Source: an uncultured Kordia sp. (GTDB taxonomy: Bacteria > Bacteroidota > Bacteroidia > Flavobacteriales > Flavobacteriaceae). From it: DNA of 64,000 nt. Positions 46,630 through 61,333 of the stretch are shown in pieces. Each line of letters starts with the position of its first letter. The stretch's first letter is position 1. The position numbers and the translations under genes were made by a program. The notes beneath the pieces were generated by a model that saw only the letters and a list, made by a program, of their open reading frames with translations, made no database searches and was not told the origin of the DNA. The stretch spans positions 496,001 through 560,000 of the forward strand of contig NZ_CANMEZ010000003.1 of assembly GCF_947496985.1 (NCBI RefSeq), given 5' to 3'.

Positions 46630-46806
46630 TTAATCATCAGGGCAACCTAACTTAGTAACACAGATAATAGCACAAGATAATGTGGTAAAGCAAAAAGGTA
46701 AAATAGTAGTAAAAGTTATATTTCCTTCTTTTCCTCCAGTCATTTGATCAAGATTAGAAATCGATTTTTTATTCAATTTCAAATTTTTTAAACTTTTTTT
46801 CTTCAT
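46630..46806 (-). CDS. Putative class I lanthipeptide-like precursor peptide 2
   Basis: 58 residues. Leader MKKKSLKNLKLNKKSIS followed by NLDQMTGGKEG: the LKLNKKSISNL segment matches the leader motif of Bacteroidota class I lanthipeptide precursors, and TGG is a double-Gly-type cleavage site. The predicted core holds four Cys and six Thr/Ser (FTTILPFCFTTLSCAIICV, TKLGCPDD) and is unusually hydrophobic. A TAnnTTTG-type box (minus strand, 46854-46847) lies 41 bases upstream. No lanthionine synthetase or exporter is nearby, so maturation enzymes would have to act from elsewhere. Confidence 0.75.
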   Translation of the reverse strand: MKKKSLKNLKLNKKSISNLDQMTGGKEGNITFTTILPFCFTTLSCAIICVTKLGCPDD

Positions 46807-49665: not shown

Positions 49666-49857
49666 TTAATAATCATCTGGAGCGCAAGCATACGCACACA
49701 CTAAAATAAAGCTAGTATGAGCTCCATAGCATAAATCTGCAAAACGACTTGTGTAAATTGCTGAAGTTGTAATTCCTCCTTTAACTGCTTTTTCAGATAA
49801 GGTAGAAATTGTAGTTTTCTTCAAATGTAGGTTGTTTTTGATGTTTCTTTTTTTCAT
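49666..49857 (-). CDS. Putative class I lanthipeptide-like precursor peptide 3
   Basis: 63 residues. Leader MKKRNIKNNLHLKKTTIS, then TLSEKAVKGG (double Gly). The LHLKKTTISTL segment matches the LxLxKxTIxxL leader pattern of Bacteroidota class I lanthipeptide precursors. The core has three Cys and six Ser/Thr (ITTSAIYTSRFADLCYG, LVCAYACAPDDY). It lies 58 bases after peptide gene 4 on the same strand, so the two probably form one transcript ended by the shared terminator. Confidence 0.75.
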   Translation of the reverse strand: MKKRNIKNNLHLKKTTISTLSEKAVKGGITTSAIYTSRFADLCYGAHTSFILVCAYACAPDDY

Positions 49858-49915: not shown

Positions 49916-50116
49916 TTATACAGGAAGTGTTCCTGTTCCACAATTAACAGCACAATTGATTCCTTGACTACTTATAGAGCCGCCACCATCACAAACTGTA
50001 GGATGATAAGAAGGACAATCTATAGATCCCATAGTTCCTCCTTTAATAGTATGTTCTTTTAAGTTTGCAACTAAAGTTTTTTCAAGTCTAAGTACTTTCA
50101 AATTCTTTCTTTTCAT
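49916..50116 (-). CDS. Putative class I lanthipeptide-like precursor peptide 4
   Basis: 66 residues. Leader MKRKNLKVLRLEKTLVANL, then KEHTIKGG; core with four Cys and many Gly/Ser (CPSYHPTVCDGGGSISS, NCAVNCGTGTLPV). Leader spacing parallels peptide 3 (charged start, Leu-x-Leu-x-Lys, double Gly at about residue 26-27), although the cores differ. First gene of a two-gene peptide operon. Confidence 0.75.
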   Translation of the reverse strand: MKRKNLKVLRLEKTLVANLKEHTIKGGTMGSIDCPSYHPTVCDGGGSISSQGINCAVNCGTGTLPV

Positions 50117-56546: not shown

Positions 56547-57500
56547 ATGTCAGATGTTGCCGCTATTGAAAACCTTGTAAAAAAACACAAGGAACTCAAG
56601 AACGAAATTGCAAAAATTATTGTTGGTCAAGAAAAAGTAGTAGATCAAATATTACTTTCTATATTTTCTGGTGGACATGCATTGTTGATTGGTGTTCCTG
56701 GATTAGCAAAAACATTAATGGTAAATACCATTGCTACAACATTAGGTTTAGACTTTAAAAGAATTCAGTTTACACCAGATTTAATGCCAAGTGATATCTT
56801 GGGAAGTGAAATCTTAGATGAATCACGTAATTTCAAATTCATCAAAGGACCAATCTTTGCAAACATAATTTTGGCTGATGAAATCAACCGTACGCCACCA
56901 AAAACCCAAGCTGCCTTACTAGAAGCAATGCAAGAACGCGCAGTAACTGTTGCGGGACATCATTATAAATTGGATTTACCATACTTTGTATTAGCAACGC
57001 AAAACCCAATTGAACAAGAAGGAACATATCCGTTACCAGAAGCACAATTGGACCGTTTTATGTTTGCTATTCACTTAACATATCCAACATTTGCAGAAGA
57101 AGTACAAGTTGTAAAAGCAACTACTACAGATGTAGAAGCTTCCGTAAAACCATTATTCAATGCACAAGAAATTATTGCGATTCAAAAACTAATTCGTAAA
57201 ATTCCTGTAGCAGATAATGTAATTGAATATGCAGTGCGTTTGGTATCAAAAACACGTCCAAAGGAAGAAAGTGCTACGGATTTAGTAAAGCAGTATGTAG
57301 ATTGGGGAGCAGGACCAAGAGCTTCACAAAACTTAATATTAGCCGCAAAAGCACACGCAGCAATTAATGGTAAATTTTCTCCAGATATTGAAGACGTGCA
57401 AGCAGTAGCCATTGGAATCTTATCACACAGAGTAATTCGAAATTATAAAGCAGAAGCGGAAGGAATTACTATAGAAAAAATCATAGAAAGTCTATTCTAA
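56547..57500 (+). CDS. MoxR-type AAA+ ATPase
   Basis: 317 residues. Walker A GVPGLAKT, Walker B IILADEINRTPPKTQAALLEAMQE (ILADEINR), sensor 1 ATQNPIEQEG and the AAA_lid_2 C-terminus. MoxR ATPases work as chaperones for metal or envelope complexes, usually with a von Willebrand-type partner. None of the usual DUF58/VWA/BatA genes follows here. The last 27 codons are duplicated 617 bases downstream, so the 3' end may have been replaced in a recombination event. Confidence 0.92.
   Translation: MSDVAAIENLVKKHKELKNEIAKIIVGQEKVVDQILLSIFSGGHALLIGVPGLAKTLMVNTIATTLGLDFKRIQFTPDLMPSDILGSEILDESRNFKFIKGPIFANIILADEINRTPPKTQAALLEAMQERAVTVAGHHYKLDLPYFVLATQNPIEQEGTYPLPEAQLDRFMFAIHLTYPTFAEEVQVVKATTTDVEASVKPLFNAQEIIAIQKLIRKIPVADNVIEYAVRLVSKTRPKEESATDLVKQYVDWGAGPRASQNLILAAKAHAAINGKFSPDIEDVQAVAIGILSHRVIRNYKAEAEGITIEKIIESLF
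57420..57500 (+). repeat. Direct repeat copy A: the 3' end of moxR
   Basis: 81 bases ending with the moxR stop codon. They recur at 58037-58117 with two changes: ATT to ATC in an Ile codon and GCG to GCA in an Ala codon. Both are synonymous when read in the moxR frame. Confidence 0.92.
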
Positions 57501-57502
57501 AA

Positions 57503-57546
57503 AAACTCCACTTTTTAGATTTTCACCTAAAAAGCGGAGTTTATTT
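57503..57546. terminator. Terminator between moxR and peptide gene 5
   Basis: Stem ACTCC-x-CTTTTTAG/CTAAAAAG-x-GGAGT. The middle pair is A-C as read rightward but G-U as read leftward. With its T7 run, it is better suited to ending the leftward peptide gene. Confidence 0.75.
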
Positions 57547-57600
57547 AAAGTTTAACAAAATTAAACCTTGTTAAAGTAGCGTTTAATCTATTCTTGATTA

Positions 57601-57780
57601 TTATCCAATAACTGGACCTGCACACGTTATTTGTTTACAATAAGTAAATGCTGTTGGTGGTCTACAACCATTGTGTATATAAGTAGGACAACGTAATGTA
57701 TCACCACCTCCAGTTATTAAATTTAAATTCTTAGTAATTGTTACTTTCTTTAATCCTAACTTTAGATTTCGTTTTTTCAT
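57601..57780 (-). CDS. Putative class I lanthipeptide-like precursor peptide 5
   Basis: 59 residues. Leader MKKRNLKLGLKKVTITKNL, then NLITGGG; the LxLKKVTITxNL motif matches Bacteroidota class I lanthipeptide leaders, and ITGGG is a double-Gly site. The core has four Cys and several Thr (DTLRCPTYIHNGCRPP, FTYCKQITCAGPVIG). The gene lies inside a segment bounded by two copies of the moxR 3' end, and upstream has a palindrome and a pair of direct repeats. No maturation enzyme is present nearby. Confidence 0.75.
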   Translation of the reverse strand: MKKRNLKLGLKKVTITKNLNLITGGGDTLRCPTYIHNGCRPPTAFTYCKQITCAGPVIG

Positions 57781-57808
57781 AATTAAATGTTTTAAATATT
57801 AATGTTAA

Positions 57809-57832
57809 AAACAATATTAACTAATATTGTTT
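57809..57832. promoter_or_regulatory. Inverted repeat upstream of peptide gene 5
   Basis: Perfect 10-bp arms AAACAATATT/AATATTGTTT with a four-base spacer, 29-52 bases upstream of the peptide start codon (57780). Candidate repressor or activator site near the promoter. Confidence 0.4.
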
Positions 57833-57852
57833 ATTAAATACCTATTGAATTA

Positions 57853-57883
57853 ATAAGCGTATGCTATTTATTGATAAGCGTAT
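57853..57883. promoter_or_regulatory. Tandem direct repeat upstream of peptide gene 5
   Basis: ATAAGCGTAT at 57853-57862 and again at 57874-57883, identical and exactly 21 bp apart (two helical turns). It is 73-103 bases upstream of the peptide ATG. The geometry is that of LytTR-type response-regulator sites, which often control peptide genes. Confidence 0.5.
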
Positions 57884-58036
57884 ATTTAATGCATAAATAG
57901 TTAATACTTTTAACATATAAATTAGGTGTCGTAATTCTGAATTTATCGTACAATGTTTAAGCCATAGACCGCTTTTTTATTAAAAAAATGTAAAAACATG
58001 TGTTGACTATTAAAATGCATTATTCTAAAATTTAAT

Positions 58037-58117
58037 TTATCACACAGAGTAATCCGAAATTATAAAGCAGAAGCAGAAGGAATTACTATAGAAAAAATCA
58101 TAGAAAGTCTATTCTAA
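58037..58117 (+). repeat. Direct repeat copy B: duplicated 3' end of moxR without the rest of the gene
   Basis: 81 bases with 79 identical to 57420-57500, ending at the equivalent stop codon. Upstream of it there is no moxR-like sequence, so it cannot encode a protein alone. Followed by a long hairpin at 58176. Confidence 0.92.
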
Positions 58118-58555
58118 GAAAAACTTTTTAAGAATCTTTATTAAAAGCAATTCTTACAAATTTGTGAGTATCTAAAAAAATATCACTTCAAATTATGAAT
58201 TCCATAATTTGAAGTGATATTTTTAGTTTATTTTAAATTTAACGCAATGAAATCAAGGGTTTGGTAAAAATAATTAGCTTAAAATAATGGTATACTGTTA
58301 ATTTTTAAAAATGAAGATAATTTTGTAATTTTGCAAGACTTTCAAAACACTAAAAAACGCAATAATCTGGATATTAATATGATAGATTTTTTTATTCAAT
58401 AATTTTTAGAAAAAATGTTTTACAGAGTATAAAATTATTGCAAAAAAGAATCTTTTTGGAAAAGATTTAGTTCGTATTTCTAGAAAAGAAAGAACAAATC
58501 AATAAACAGATTGTTTCAGAAAGTATCTATTAATATACTGAAAAAGAAATCTTAT
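58118..58555. other. 438-base stretch without a recognisable gene
   Basis: AT-rich. It holds the 22-bp hairpin at 58176-58224, a possible -7 box TAATTTTG at 58326-58333 without a clear -33 partner, and the leader of the AcnB gene. A frame starting at a TTG (58511) is the same frame as AcnB and adds 15 residues not typical of the family. Confidence 0.6.
58176..58225. terminator. Long perfect hairpin, probable terminator
   Basis: 22-bp stem AAAAATATCACTTC.../...GAAGTGATATTTTT with a five-base loop AATTC, A-run and T-run on either side. Likely the ancestral moxR terminator, 59 bases after repeat copy B. Confidence 0.75.
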
Positions 58556-61333
58556 ATGAATACTTATCAAGATTACCTCAAAGAGATCGAAGAACGAAAA
58601 AAGCAAGGACTACATCCAAAACCAATTGATGGAGCTGAATTATTATCTGAAATAATTGCACAAATTAAAGATGTAAATAATTTATACAGAGAAGATTCTC
58701 TACATTTTTTTATCTACAATACCTTACCTGGTACCACAAGTGCAGCTGGTGTAAAAGCTAAATTTTTAAAAGAAATCATTCTTGGACAATTTACATTGGA
58801 AGAAATTTCACCTGCTTTTGCATTTGAGCAATTATCACACATGAAGGGTGGACCTTCTGTTGAAGTGTTGTTAGATTTAGCTTTGGGTGATGATCTTGCT
58901 ATTGCGAATGAATCAAAAAAGATATTAAAAACTCAAGTATTTTTATATGAAGCAGATACAGAACAATTAGAAAAAGCTTATAGAGCAGGAAATACTATTG
59001 CTAAAGAATTATTAGAAAGCTATGCTCAAGCAGAATTCTTTACCAAGTTACCAGATGTTGAGGAAGAAATAGAGATTGTAACTTTTGTTGCAGGTATTGG
59101 AGATATTTCTACAGATTTATTATCTCCAGGAGCAGATGCACATTCAAGGTCAGATCGTGAATTACATGGTCAATGTATGTTTGAGCATAATAAAGAGATG
59201 CAAAATGCATTATTGGCATTAAAAGACAAACACCCTAATAAGCGTGTTATGTTAATTGCTGATAAAGGAACAATGGGAGTTGGGTCTTCAAGAATGTCAG
59301 GTGTAAATAATGTGGCATTATGGACAGGAATTTCTTCTAGCCCATATGTACCATTTATTAATATTGCTCCAGTAATTGCTGGTACTAACGGTATAGCGCC
59401 AATTTTCCTAACAACTGTTGGTGTAACTGGTGGTATTGGTATCGATTTAAAAAACTGGGTAAAGCAAAAAGACGCTGATGGTAATACTATTGTTGATGCA
59501 GATGGTGAGCCAATCTTAAAAGAAGAGTATTCAGTAGCTACAGGTACTGTTTTAACTATTAACACAAAAACAAAAAAATTATATAAAGGAGACAAAGAGT
59601 TAAAAGATATCTCTACAGCTTTAACACCTCCAAAAATGGAGTTTATAAAAGCAGGAGGTTCTTATGCTGTTGTTTTCGGTAAAAAATTACAAACATTTGC
59701 TTGTAAAGTTTTAGATATAGATGTTCCTCAAGTATATGCTCCATCAAAAGAAGTTTCTATAGAAGGACAAGGTTTAACTGCTGTTGAGAAAATATTCAAC
59801 AGAAATGCAGTAGGAACTACACCTGGAAAAACATTACACGCAGGTTCAAATGTTAGAGTTGAAGTAAACATTGTAGGTTCTCAAGATACTACAGGTTTAA
59901 TGACTTCTCAAGAATTAGAAATGATGGCCGCCACAGTTATCTCTCCAATTGTTGATGCAGGTTATCAATCTGGATGTCATACAGCTTCAGTTTGGGATGA
60001 TAAGTCTAAAGCGAATATTCCAAGATTAATGAAATTTATGAATGACTTCGGATTAGTTACTGCACGTCATCCAGAAGGGAAATACAATGCAATGACTGAT
60101 GTAATTCATAAAGTATTAAATGATATTGCTGTTGATGATTGGGATGTTATCATTGGAGGAGATTCACATACACGCATGGCAAAAGGTGTAGCTTTTGGAG
60201 CGGATTCAGGAACAGTTGCTTTAGCATTAGCTACAGGAGAAGCTACGATGCCAATTCCAGAATCTGTAAAAGTTACTTTTAAAGGAGAAATGAAATCTTA
60301 TATGGATTTCCGTGATGTGGTTCACGCTACTCAAGAACAAATGTTAAATCAGTTTGAAGGTGAGAATGTTTTCCAAGGAAAAATTATAGAAGTACATATT
60401 GGTACATTAACTTCTGACCAAGCATTCACATTTACAGATTGGACGGCTGAAATGAAAGCTAAAGCATCTATATGTATTTCTGAGGATGATACTTTAATAA
60501 AATCATTAGAAATTTCTAGAGATCGTATTCAGATTATGATTGATAAAGGTATGGATAATGAGAATCAGGATTTTAAAGGATTAGTTGATAAGGCAAATAA
60601 CCGTATCGCTGAAATTAAAACAGGAACTAAACCAGCATTAAAGCCAGATTCAGACGCTAAGTATTATGCTGAAGTTGTTATCGATTTAGATAAGATTGTT
60701 GAGCCTATGATTGCTGATCCAGATGTAAATAATGAAGATGTATCCAAGCGTTATACGCATGATAATATTCAACCATTATCTTTCTATGGAGGAACTAAGA
60801 AAGTAGACCTAGGTTTTGTTGGTTCGTGTATGGTACATAAAGGAGATATGCAAATATTAGCAAAAATGCTTAAAAATGTTGAAGCACAACATGGAGAAGT
60901 AGTTTTTAAAGCTCCTTTAGTTGTTGCTCCACCTACATATAATATTGTAGATGAATTAAAAGCAGAAGGCGATTGGGAAGTTCTAGAAAAATATGCAGGA
61001 TTTGTATTTGATGATAGTGCTCCTAAAGCAATTGCAAGAACTAAGTACGAAAATAAATTATACTTAGAACGTCCAGGTTGTAGTTTATGTATGGGTAACC
61101 AAGAAAAAGCTGAGCCAGGAGATACAGTAATGGCTACATCTACACGTTTGTTCCAAGGAAGAGTTGTAAGAGATACTGAAGGGAAGAAAGGTGAATCGTT
61201 ATTATCTTCGACACCAGTTGTAGTATTGTCTACAATTCTAGGAAGAACACCTACTATGGAAGAATATGAAGCGGCTGTAGATGGAATTGTATTAACGAAA
61301 TTTAAACCATCTCAAAAACAATTAGTAATATAG
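58556..61333 (+). CDS. acnB: Aconitate hydratase B (bifunctional aconitase / 2-methylisocitrate dehydratase)
   Basis: 925 residues from ATG 58556; a TTG at 58511 is unlikely. AcnB architecture: N-terminal HEAT-like region (about 1-160), swivel domain next (EIVTFVAGIGDISTDLLSPGADAHS, KGTMGVGSSRMSGVNN) and the catalytic domain (GGDSHTRM, GSCMVHKGDMQ, GCSLCMGNQ with Cys ligands of the 4Fe-4S cluster). It interconverts citrate and isocitrate and may act on methylcitrate. A terminator and then a second, unrelated aconitase follow. Confidence 0.92.
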   Translation: MNTYQDYLKEIEERKKQGLHPKPIDGAELLSEIIAQIKDVNNLYREDSLHFFIYNTLPGTTSAAGVKAKFLKEIILGQFTLEEISPAFAFEQLSHMKGGPSVEVLLDLALGDDLAIANESKKILKTQVFLYEADTEQLEKAYRAGNTIAKELLESYAQAEFFTKLPDVEEEIEIVTFVAGIGDISTDLLSPGADAHSRSDRELHGQCMFEHNKEMQNALLALKDKHPNKRVMLIADKGTMGVGSSRMSGVNNVALWTGISSSPYVPFINIAPVIAGTNGIAPIFLTTVGVTGGIGIDLKNWVKQKDADGNTIVDADGEPILKEEYSVATGTVLTINTKTKKLYKGDKELKDISTALTPPKMEFIKAGGSYAVVFGKKLQTFACKVLDIDVPQVYAPSKEVSIEGQGLTAVEKIFNRNAVGTTPGKTLHAGSNVRVEVNIVGSQDTTGLMTSQELEMMAATVISPIVDAGYQSGCHTASVWDDKSKANIPRLMKFMNDFGLVTARHPEGKYNAMTDVIHKVLNDIAVDDWDVIIGGDSHTRMAKGVAFGADSGTVALALATGEATMPIPESVKVTFKGEMKSYMDFRDVVHATQEQMLNQFEGENVFQGKIIEVHIGTLTSDQAFTFTDWTAEMKAKASICISEDDTLIKSLEISRDRIQIMIDKGMDNENQDFKGLVDKANNRIAEIKTGTKPALKPDSDAKYYAEVVIDLDKIVEPMIADPDVNNEDVSKRYTHDNIQPLSFYGGTKKVDLGFVGSCMVHKGDMQILAKMLKNVEAQHGEVVFKAPLVVAPPTYNIVDELKAEGDWEVLEKYAGFVFDDSAPKAIARTKYENKLYLERPGCSLCMGNQEKAEPGDTVMATSTRLFQGRVVRDTEGKKGESLLSSTPVVVLSTILGRTPTMEEYEAAVDGIVLTKFKPSQKQLVI

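Follow-up and report, generated by a model that had tools for sequence, protein, structure and literature searches.

Apparent insertion of a lanthipeptide-like precursor unit at the restored 3' end of moxR in Kordia

Comparison of a marine Kordia genome (G000) with ten congeners shows that its lineage acquired a unit of 617 nt precisely at the native 3' end of moxR. The unit is made up of a moxR 3' end, a terminator, a convergent precursor gene and the region upstream of that gene. moxR itself was left intact, now with a new terminator, and its old last 81 nt persist before the old flank. We consider insertion with restoration of the gene end to be very nearly certain at this site. The explanation that best covers all of the observations, a 617-nt addition that recurs with other cargo and proceeds by gene-end-anchored recombination, is one towards which we lean slightly; the recombination mechanism taken by itself, which is read from the anatomy of the insertion, is evenly poised.

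Results

The window, by which we mean the whole stretch of DNA that was analysed (64 kb, C3:496001-560000), belongs to a draft genome of 5.48 Mb in 61 contigs. It has the following features at the moxR site.

56547 to 57500, + strand: moxR, intact, 317 aa, with AAA_3 and AAA_lid_2 domains (open reading frame; Pfam)
57420 to 57500, + strand: copy A, the 81-nt end of the working moxR, here assigned to the incoming unit
57498 to 57545: terminator hairpin between the convergent moxR and precursor genes (-17.8 kcal/mol, z -8.2 on the + strand; forms on the - strand too)
57501 to 58036: inserted segment, 536 nt, or 617 nt with one repeat copy (flank of copy A unlike that of congeners)
57601 to 57780, - strand: precursor gene, 59 aa, GG leader, core with 4 Cys and 5 Thr (open reading frame; leader alignment)
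57781 to 58036, - strand: upstream region of the precursor, 256 nt, with two TAAGCGTAT repeats (read from the sequence)
58037 to 58117, + strand: copy B, the old moxR 3' end, a relic with the native flank after it
58118 to 58384, + strand: native moxR 3' flank with a hairpin at 58176-58224 (congener alignment; folding)
58556 to 61333, + strand: aconitase gene downstream of the gap, which it also adjoins in G008 (open reading frame)

A first-pass annotation of this DNA had reported a second copy of the final 81 nt of moxR at 58037-58117, with two differences, both of them synonymous, and both repeat search and alignment agree with it. The unguided search returned a direct repeat of 86 nt (57420-57505 and 58037-58122, 97 % identity, spacing 617), and copies A and B have two mismatches in 81 coding nt, ATT/ATC and GCG/GCA. 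When the moxR end was aligned locally with the final 700 nt of the gap, the score was 76, compared to 14.5 or less in 200 dinucleotide shuffles, and a whole-genome search with the 86-nt repeat gave two full-span matches, the next being of 25 nt (E 0.0026). The terminator, precursor and repeats described between the copies are all present as a hairpin, an open reading frame and the 9-nt TAAGCGTAT pair (57854-57862 and 57875-57883, 21 nt apart). As a side observation, TATTCTAAAA at 58020-58029, immediately 5' of copy B, is similar to the final bases of moxR and may be a trace of the joint or an AT-rich chance match.

An orthologue of moxR is present in 11/11 genomes, and the 330 nt after its stop were compared across the ten Kordia congeners (G001-G010). 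The flank of copy B (58149-58384 or part of it) aligned just after the moxR stop in six of them (G001, G003, G005, G006, G007 and G010), with scores of 185-237 against shuffled maxima of 33-50, and was without a match in G002, G004, G008 and G009 (scores 24-30). The flank of copy A, by comparison with the post-moxR sequence of all ten congeners, scored 19-29, approximately the shuffle level. Five of these congeners agree to within 2 nt in the distance from the stop to the aligned block, G003 being off by 25 nt. As moxR is joined directly to sequence like 58149-58384 in 6/10 congeners, copy B and its flank are the old end; copy A together with 57501-58036 (617 nt) is the newcomer, and copy B with the downstream flank is the native moxR end. 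This bears out the first-pass proposal of an insertion at the moxR 3' end in which the reading frame is preserved: the flank of copy B is native and that of copy A is not. It reverses the accompanying idea that copy B was the foreign one. The same six congeners have the arrangement that had been predicted for relatives, namely moxR directly before the 58176 hairpin without the segment. None of the ten has the 617-nt unit (repeat and peptide) at moxR; close relatives all sharing both at this site, with shared divergence, had been named as the observation that would speak against insertion. In the moxR-aconitase gap, G002, G008 and G009 have a 316-aa protein (DUF6438 in the G008 copy) and G004 has a 154-aa open reading frame. 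A gap survey took the best 80 moxR loci (L075-L154), 75 of which have the aconitase gene in the stretch; in 40 of these 75, mostly from other genera, the gap is ≥700 nt.

The gain of the unit is recent. Copies A and B differ at 2/81 nt, whereas congeners differ from either at 10-17/81. A tree of the upstream sequence and moxR minus its end paired G000 with G004 (support 100/100), and this sister species is without the 617-nt unit. Synonymous divergence was 0.13 between A and B (two changes, 17 sites), 0.71 to G004 and 0.58 to G009, and because of the last value moxR distance alone does not single out G004. The first-pass annotation had argued protein-level selection from the synonymous-only differences. 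Both changes are indeed synonymous, but the argument is weak, because a drifting copy would show two out of two with a chance of approximately 0.12 if both are transitions (28/81 possible transitions being synonymous), and because changes in the working end A would be synonymous anyway.

A single open reading frame of ≥40 aa, the 59-aa precursor, lies between copies A and B. It had no NCBIfam or Pfam match of its own, and NCBIfam lant_leader_L1a did not match its leader; the leader does, however, align with other Kordia leaders. The leader motif of Bacteroidota class I lanthipeptides is described as LxLxKx5L with a GG end (PMC7268733). LxLxK and GG are both present at the moxR site, with six residues before the last Leu compared to five in that motif, and the core has the residues of a lanthipeptide (Cys, Ser/Thr) in the form of 4 Cys and 5 Thr. 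The peptide is a lanthipeptide-like precursor with a putative modified product. A clear orthologue was absent from the 11 genomes, the best other match in the genus having an E value of 0.0015, and the precursor was found in 2/299 genomes of the family, its own included, the other at E 8e-4. It had no match among plasmids, phages and viral contigs. The leader region alone of 57501-58036 matches elsewhere in the genus, and travel of the whole segment, as the first-pass annotation had envisaged, was not found. TACGCTTA, tried as a shared regulatory motif, was dropped: it stands upstream of 1/162 precursors, namely the moxR-site one.

Regarding mobility, the ends of 57501-58036 have no transposon-type terminal inverted repeats, and the duplication measures 81 nt; the sole inverted repeat noted is internal to the segment (18 nt, 78 %, 57520-57537 and 57969-57986). 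The absence of an integrase, as first described, is upheld by the lack of tyrosine recombinase matches (PF00589) in the 64-kb window. There are eight such matches genome-wide, two of them on the moxR contig at a distance of about 394 kb or more, one of which is below the curated cut-off, and the genome has no Y1 transposases (PF01797).

Similar leaders are abundant in Kordia. G000 has at least 148 at E ≤1e-4 among the 150 of 356 candidates that were scored, a list from which the moxR-site precursor itself is absent, and the 11 genomes have from 108 to at least 150 leaders each (E ≤1). A LanB N-terminal match occurs once per genome in 11/11. In G000, contig C1 has matches to PF04738, PF14028, PF05147 and PF03412 (LanB, LanC and a GG-cleaving transporter); the LanB locus includes LanC and a separate LanB C-terminal protein, with a C39-peptidase transporter and an HlyD-type protein nearby. 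The moxR-site peptide probably belongs to a set of at least 148 substrates that are scattered over the genome and served by a single central LanB/LanC/C39 locus, so that a bare precursor unit would suffice to add a product. The window also has a further precursor of the same GG-leader type at 46630-46806 (- strand). Two more lie in its guaB/OmpH-like gap, at 49666-49857 and 49916-50116 (both - strand). A precursor of the 49666-49857 type occurs at the guaB site in 9/11 species (the pattern missed G006 and G008), and that at 49916-50116 is common to G000 and G004 only; inheritance with local gain is the mode that rules at this site.

To survey gene-end insertions, whole genes were searched against the intergenic DNA of their own stretch, and copies of gene 3' ends were counted when they were ≥75 nt, on the same strand, downstream and away from stretch edges. 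The Kordia set held 1312 genes: 49 in the window, 447 in 80 precursor-centred stretches from six species and 816 in 58 evenly spaced stretches from G003, G006 and G009, a few of which overlap precursor-centred ones slightly. The control held 733 genes at 80 moxR loci, mostly of other genera (two Kordia). One 3' copy was counted in the window (moxR), one in the precursor-centred stretches (L215) and three in the evenly spaced ones (L277, L290 and L301), compared to no 3' relic of ≥75 nt in the control. Copies of 5' or internal sequence of that size came from L295, L268 (an internal fragment, 72 %) and L278 in the same Kordia sets. In the control there was a single 5' copy (L109, 71 %), besides one located at a stretch edge. 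Sorting left insertions at three of the 1312 Kordia genes, moxR and the two listed below, and the difference between 3/1312 and 0/733 was not significant.

L215, G009: insertion at an OmpA-family gene, 2.4 kb, the cargo being genes for a cNMP-binding protein, DoxX and a tautomerase and one unassigned open reading frame
L290, G003: insertion at folP, 1.45 kb, with a 339-aa LamG-domain open reading frame as cargo

For the first of these, G000 (L155) and G005 (L060) give the reference layout, in which the OmpA-family gene has behind it a terminator, a precursor in convergent orientation and a NUDIX gene. The OmpA-family gene of G009 is intact (84 % identical to the G000 orthologue over 451 aa). 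Behind it come the 2.4-kb unit and a degraded version of the gene's final 80 nt (84 %), after which the order resumes with terminator, precursor and NUDIX gene. An interpretation of this relic as an intact small open reading frame proved wrong; it is the decayed OmpA end. In G006 (L187) the OmpA-family and NUDIX genes lie 3.1 kb apart, unlike in G000 and G005.

At the second, the order in G003 is folP, the LamG open reading frame, 176 nt of the folP end (91 %) and a flank like that of folP in G006. The flank behind the relic scored 366 against the G006 flank (shuffled maximum 39), compared to 21 for that of the working copy (maximum 38), and includes a convergent GG-type precursor-like open reading frame. 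The last codons of the working folP differ from both the relic and G006, and look as if they were supplied by incoming DNA. Differences in 176 nt numbered 15 between working end (A) and relic (B), 29 between A and G006 and 32 between B and G006.

The relics of the three cases are 80, 81 and 176 nt long, though whole genes were queried, and end at the stop or within 9 nt of it. The synonymous share of differences between gene end and relic was 2/2 for moxR, 4/11 for the OmpA-family gene and 9/15 for folP. No core common to the three gene ends was found (33, 46 and 123 of 200 shuffles were equal or better), no recombinase family was recognised in the three cargoes, in which one open reading frame is without assignment, and no microhomology was visible by sight at the joints. 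Gene-end insertion with restoration recurs in Kordia, on the survey sequences, with cargo that is not always a precursor. The first-pass suggestion of mobile minimal precursor cassettes at gene ends stands as regards recurrence (OmpA-family gene in G009, folP in G003) and falls as regards precursor cargo, other genes being found there. Its expectation of further gene 3' ends repeated beside precursors was matched by only one case in the 80 precursor-centred stretches.

A further moxR relic may exist in G008, where 20 nt identical to the last codons of G006 moxR stand directly behind the inserted DUF6438 gene (0/500 shuffles; 0/200 with the G006 moxR end and 2/200 with its own). This relic is suggestive, because 7/20 nt overlap the end of that gene.

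Several look-alike repeats were rejected. L301 (RskA gene, G003) has a moxR-like layout with one precursor between the copies but arose by tandem duplication: at L301:2829-4875 the last 101 nt of the RskA-like gene, the terminator and the precursor are doubled in tandem with further precursors behind, and both units keep terminator and precursor, at 70 % identity over 474 columns. L205 (G003) consists mainly of terminator and precursor repeated, without a longer coding repeat; at L205:4040-5150 a single gene has two precursor units behind it, separated by repeated terminators and an interspersed repeat, and the counterpart of this gap in G000 and G001 has about 157 nt between flanking matches. 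L205 is probably a tandem duplication too. L277 is an IS transposase relic, L309 a 104-nt tandem repeat starting in a gene end, L278 an intact paralogue and the 5' copy in L295 a common interspersed repeat. The matches of L174 and L220 are at stretch edges, and that of L200 is 30 % over 30 aa only. The interspersed repeat (about 300 nt; L205, L295:18067-18190, 11 genomes) gave up to approximately 30 matches per genome in one search.

Discussion

In the recombination that we propose, the donor would be DNA of a close strain with the cargo already behind the gene in question. The donor would recombine by homology inside the resident gene, which would give the first joint. The second joint could form without homology, 80-176 nt before the resident stop, and would then represent homology-facilitated illegitimate recombination; alternatively, the fragment could circularise and a single crossover in the gene end could integrate the circle. 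Either route, homology with an illegitimate joint or a single crossover with a circle, would seem to require the fewest parts. Homology-facilitated illegitimate recombination has one homologous end and one that is not, and involves small linear DNA (PMC3240628); it is described there for competent bacteria and E. coli conjugation, whereas the Kordia case is read from anatomy. A donor allele or conspecific strain was found in none of the genomes compared (G000 and ten congeners). The shortness of the relics (80, 81 and 176 nt) speaks against gene-end recombination, as free illegitimate joining might spread wider. The joints without visible microhomology, the count of just three such insertions in 1312 Kordia genes and the lack of any in the control loci of mostly other genera also weigh against it, although that last contrast is not significant.

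The main rival, which we consider unlikely, is a long target duplication, in which a staggered break of approximately 80-180 nt at a gene end captures a fragment (57501-58036 at moxR) and fill-in copies the end on both sides. This would require no donor gene end, would account for short relics that end at the stop or within 9 nt of it, and would suit the finding that, for both moxR and folP, copy A is closer to copy B than either is to any congener compared. To our knowledge, however, breaks of about 80-180 nt are not a standard bacterial insertion route, and three cases at gene ends with none inside genes would be left unexplained unless selection removed others.

An integrative element offers another explanation, either as a remnant or as a cassette moved by an integrase in trans, with the moxR end as attB. 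The anatomy is the same as that of E. coli e14 at icd, where the element inserts at the 3' end and supplies a new end, leaving the old one as a 163-bp duplicated pseudogene (PMC6379469). As at icd, the moxR 3' end is duplicated around the insert with the frame restored, and 6/10 congeners have an empty site. The possible second moxR-site relic in G008 would also suit a fixed attachment site, although 7 of its 20 nt overlap the end of the inserted gene. Unlike e14 as described in that account (15.2 kb, site-specific), the Kordia moxR unit has 617 nt and no recombinase gene, and the ends used are unrelated, with no core shared between those of moxR, folP and the OmpA-family gene. About 394 kb separate the site from the closest tyrosine recombinase match. 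Furthermore, the 40 long moxR-aconitase gaps of other genera have no relic beyond chance (L104 1/200, L110 5/200, the rest 17/200 or worse), BLAST of all 80 moxR loci for relics gave four matches of 20-30 nt, and G002, G004 and G009 have no moxR relic. The lack of a shared core and of a cargo recombinase, the distance of the tyrosine recombinases and the absence of Y1 transposases together argue against one site-specific system, and we regard this explanation as distinctly improbable.

Tandem duplication of the moxR 3' end and precursor unit, in which the second precursor was later lost, is very improbable. The process is real at the RskA gene of G003 (L301), and L205 is alike. At moxR, however, what lies behind copy B is the native flank rather than a second version of the terminator found after A, and the deletion would have to restore the native joint. 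An assembly artefact can be dismissed as next to inconceivable, as the site is inside a 636-kb contig, two positions distinguish the copies and the inserted sequence is unique, even though the genome is a draft of 61 contigs.

We return to a recombinase-less addition at the moxR gene end. Its two elements are already known separately, gene-end restoration from e14 and scattered precursors around one enzyme from other bacteria (PMC10783134, PMC7268733). The prochlorosins of marine picocyanobacteria are scattered precursors of one promiscuous enzyme, with 79 in one Synechococcus strain (PMC10783134), and the many Kordia precursors are likewise scattered genome-wide around one modifying locus. 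The prochlorosin system, as described there, uses a class II LanM and Nif11-type leaders, in contrast to the split class I LanB, LanC, C39 transporter and at least 148 leaders of Kordia. The class I lanthipeptides of Bacteroidota, including pinensins, share GG leaders, an LxLxK-type motif, a split LanB and a C39 protease with Kordia (PMC7268733); unlike those described in that source, the Kordia precursor is far from the enzymes and has six, not five, residues before the last Leu. The literature searched, including that on Kordia lanthipeptides (PMC7477175, PMC10734526), held no account of such a unit that we recognised, although this search was not exhaustive. The new aspect is a variant: a recombinase-less unit of 617 nt, recurring with other cargo at unrelated gene ends.

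Conclusion

The moxR site represents a recent gain of a single RiPP precursor for which both the filled and the empty site are seen, and two more gene-end insertions carry other cargo. As a tentative proposal, which we hold with some reserve, Kordia may have a general recombinase-less route in which short DNA pieces starting with a resident gene end replace that end, preserve an intact gene and leave a relic of 80-176 nt. Bare lanthipeptide precursor units would be a frequent cargo or neighbour, and the more than 100 scattered precursors would have been collected singly, partly via tandem duplications starting in gene ends. Such bacteria may regularly acquire single genes by gene-end insertion. 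If general, this simple route would let genes be added singly, with no mobile element involved and with the neighbour unharmed, and would be the elementary step in the growth of a large, scattered set of peptides that share a modifying enzyme.
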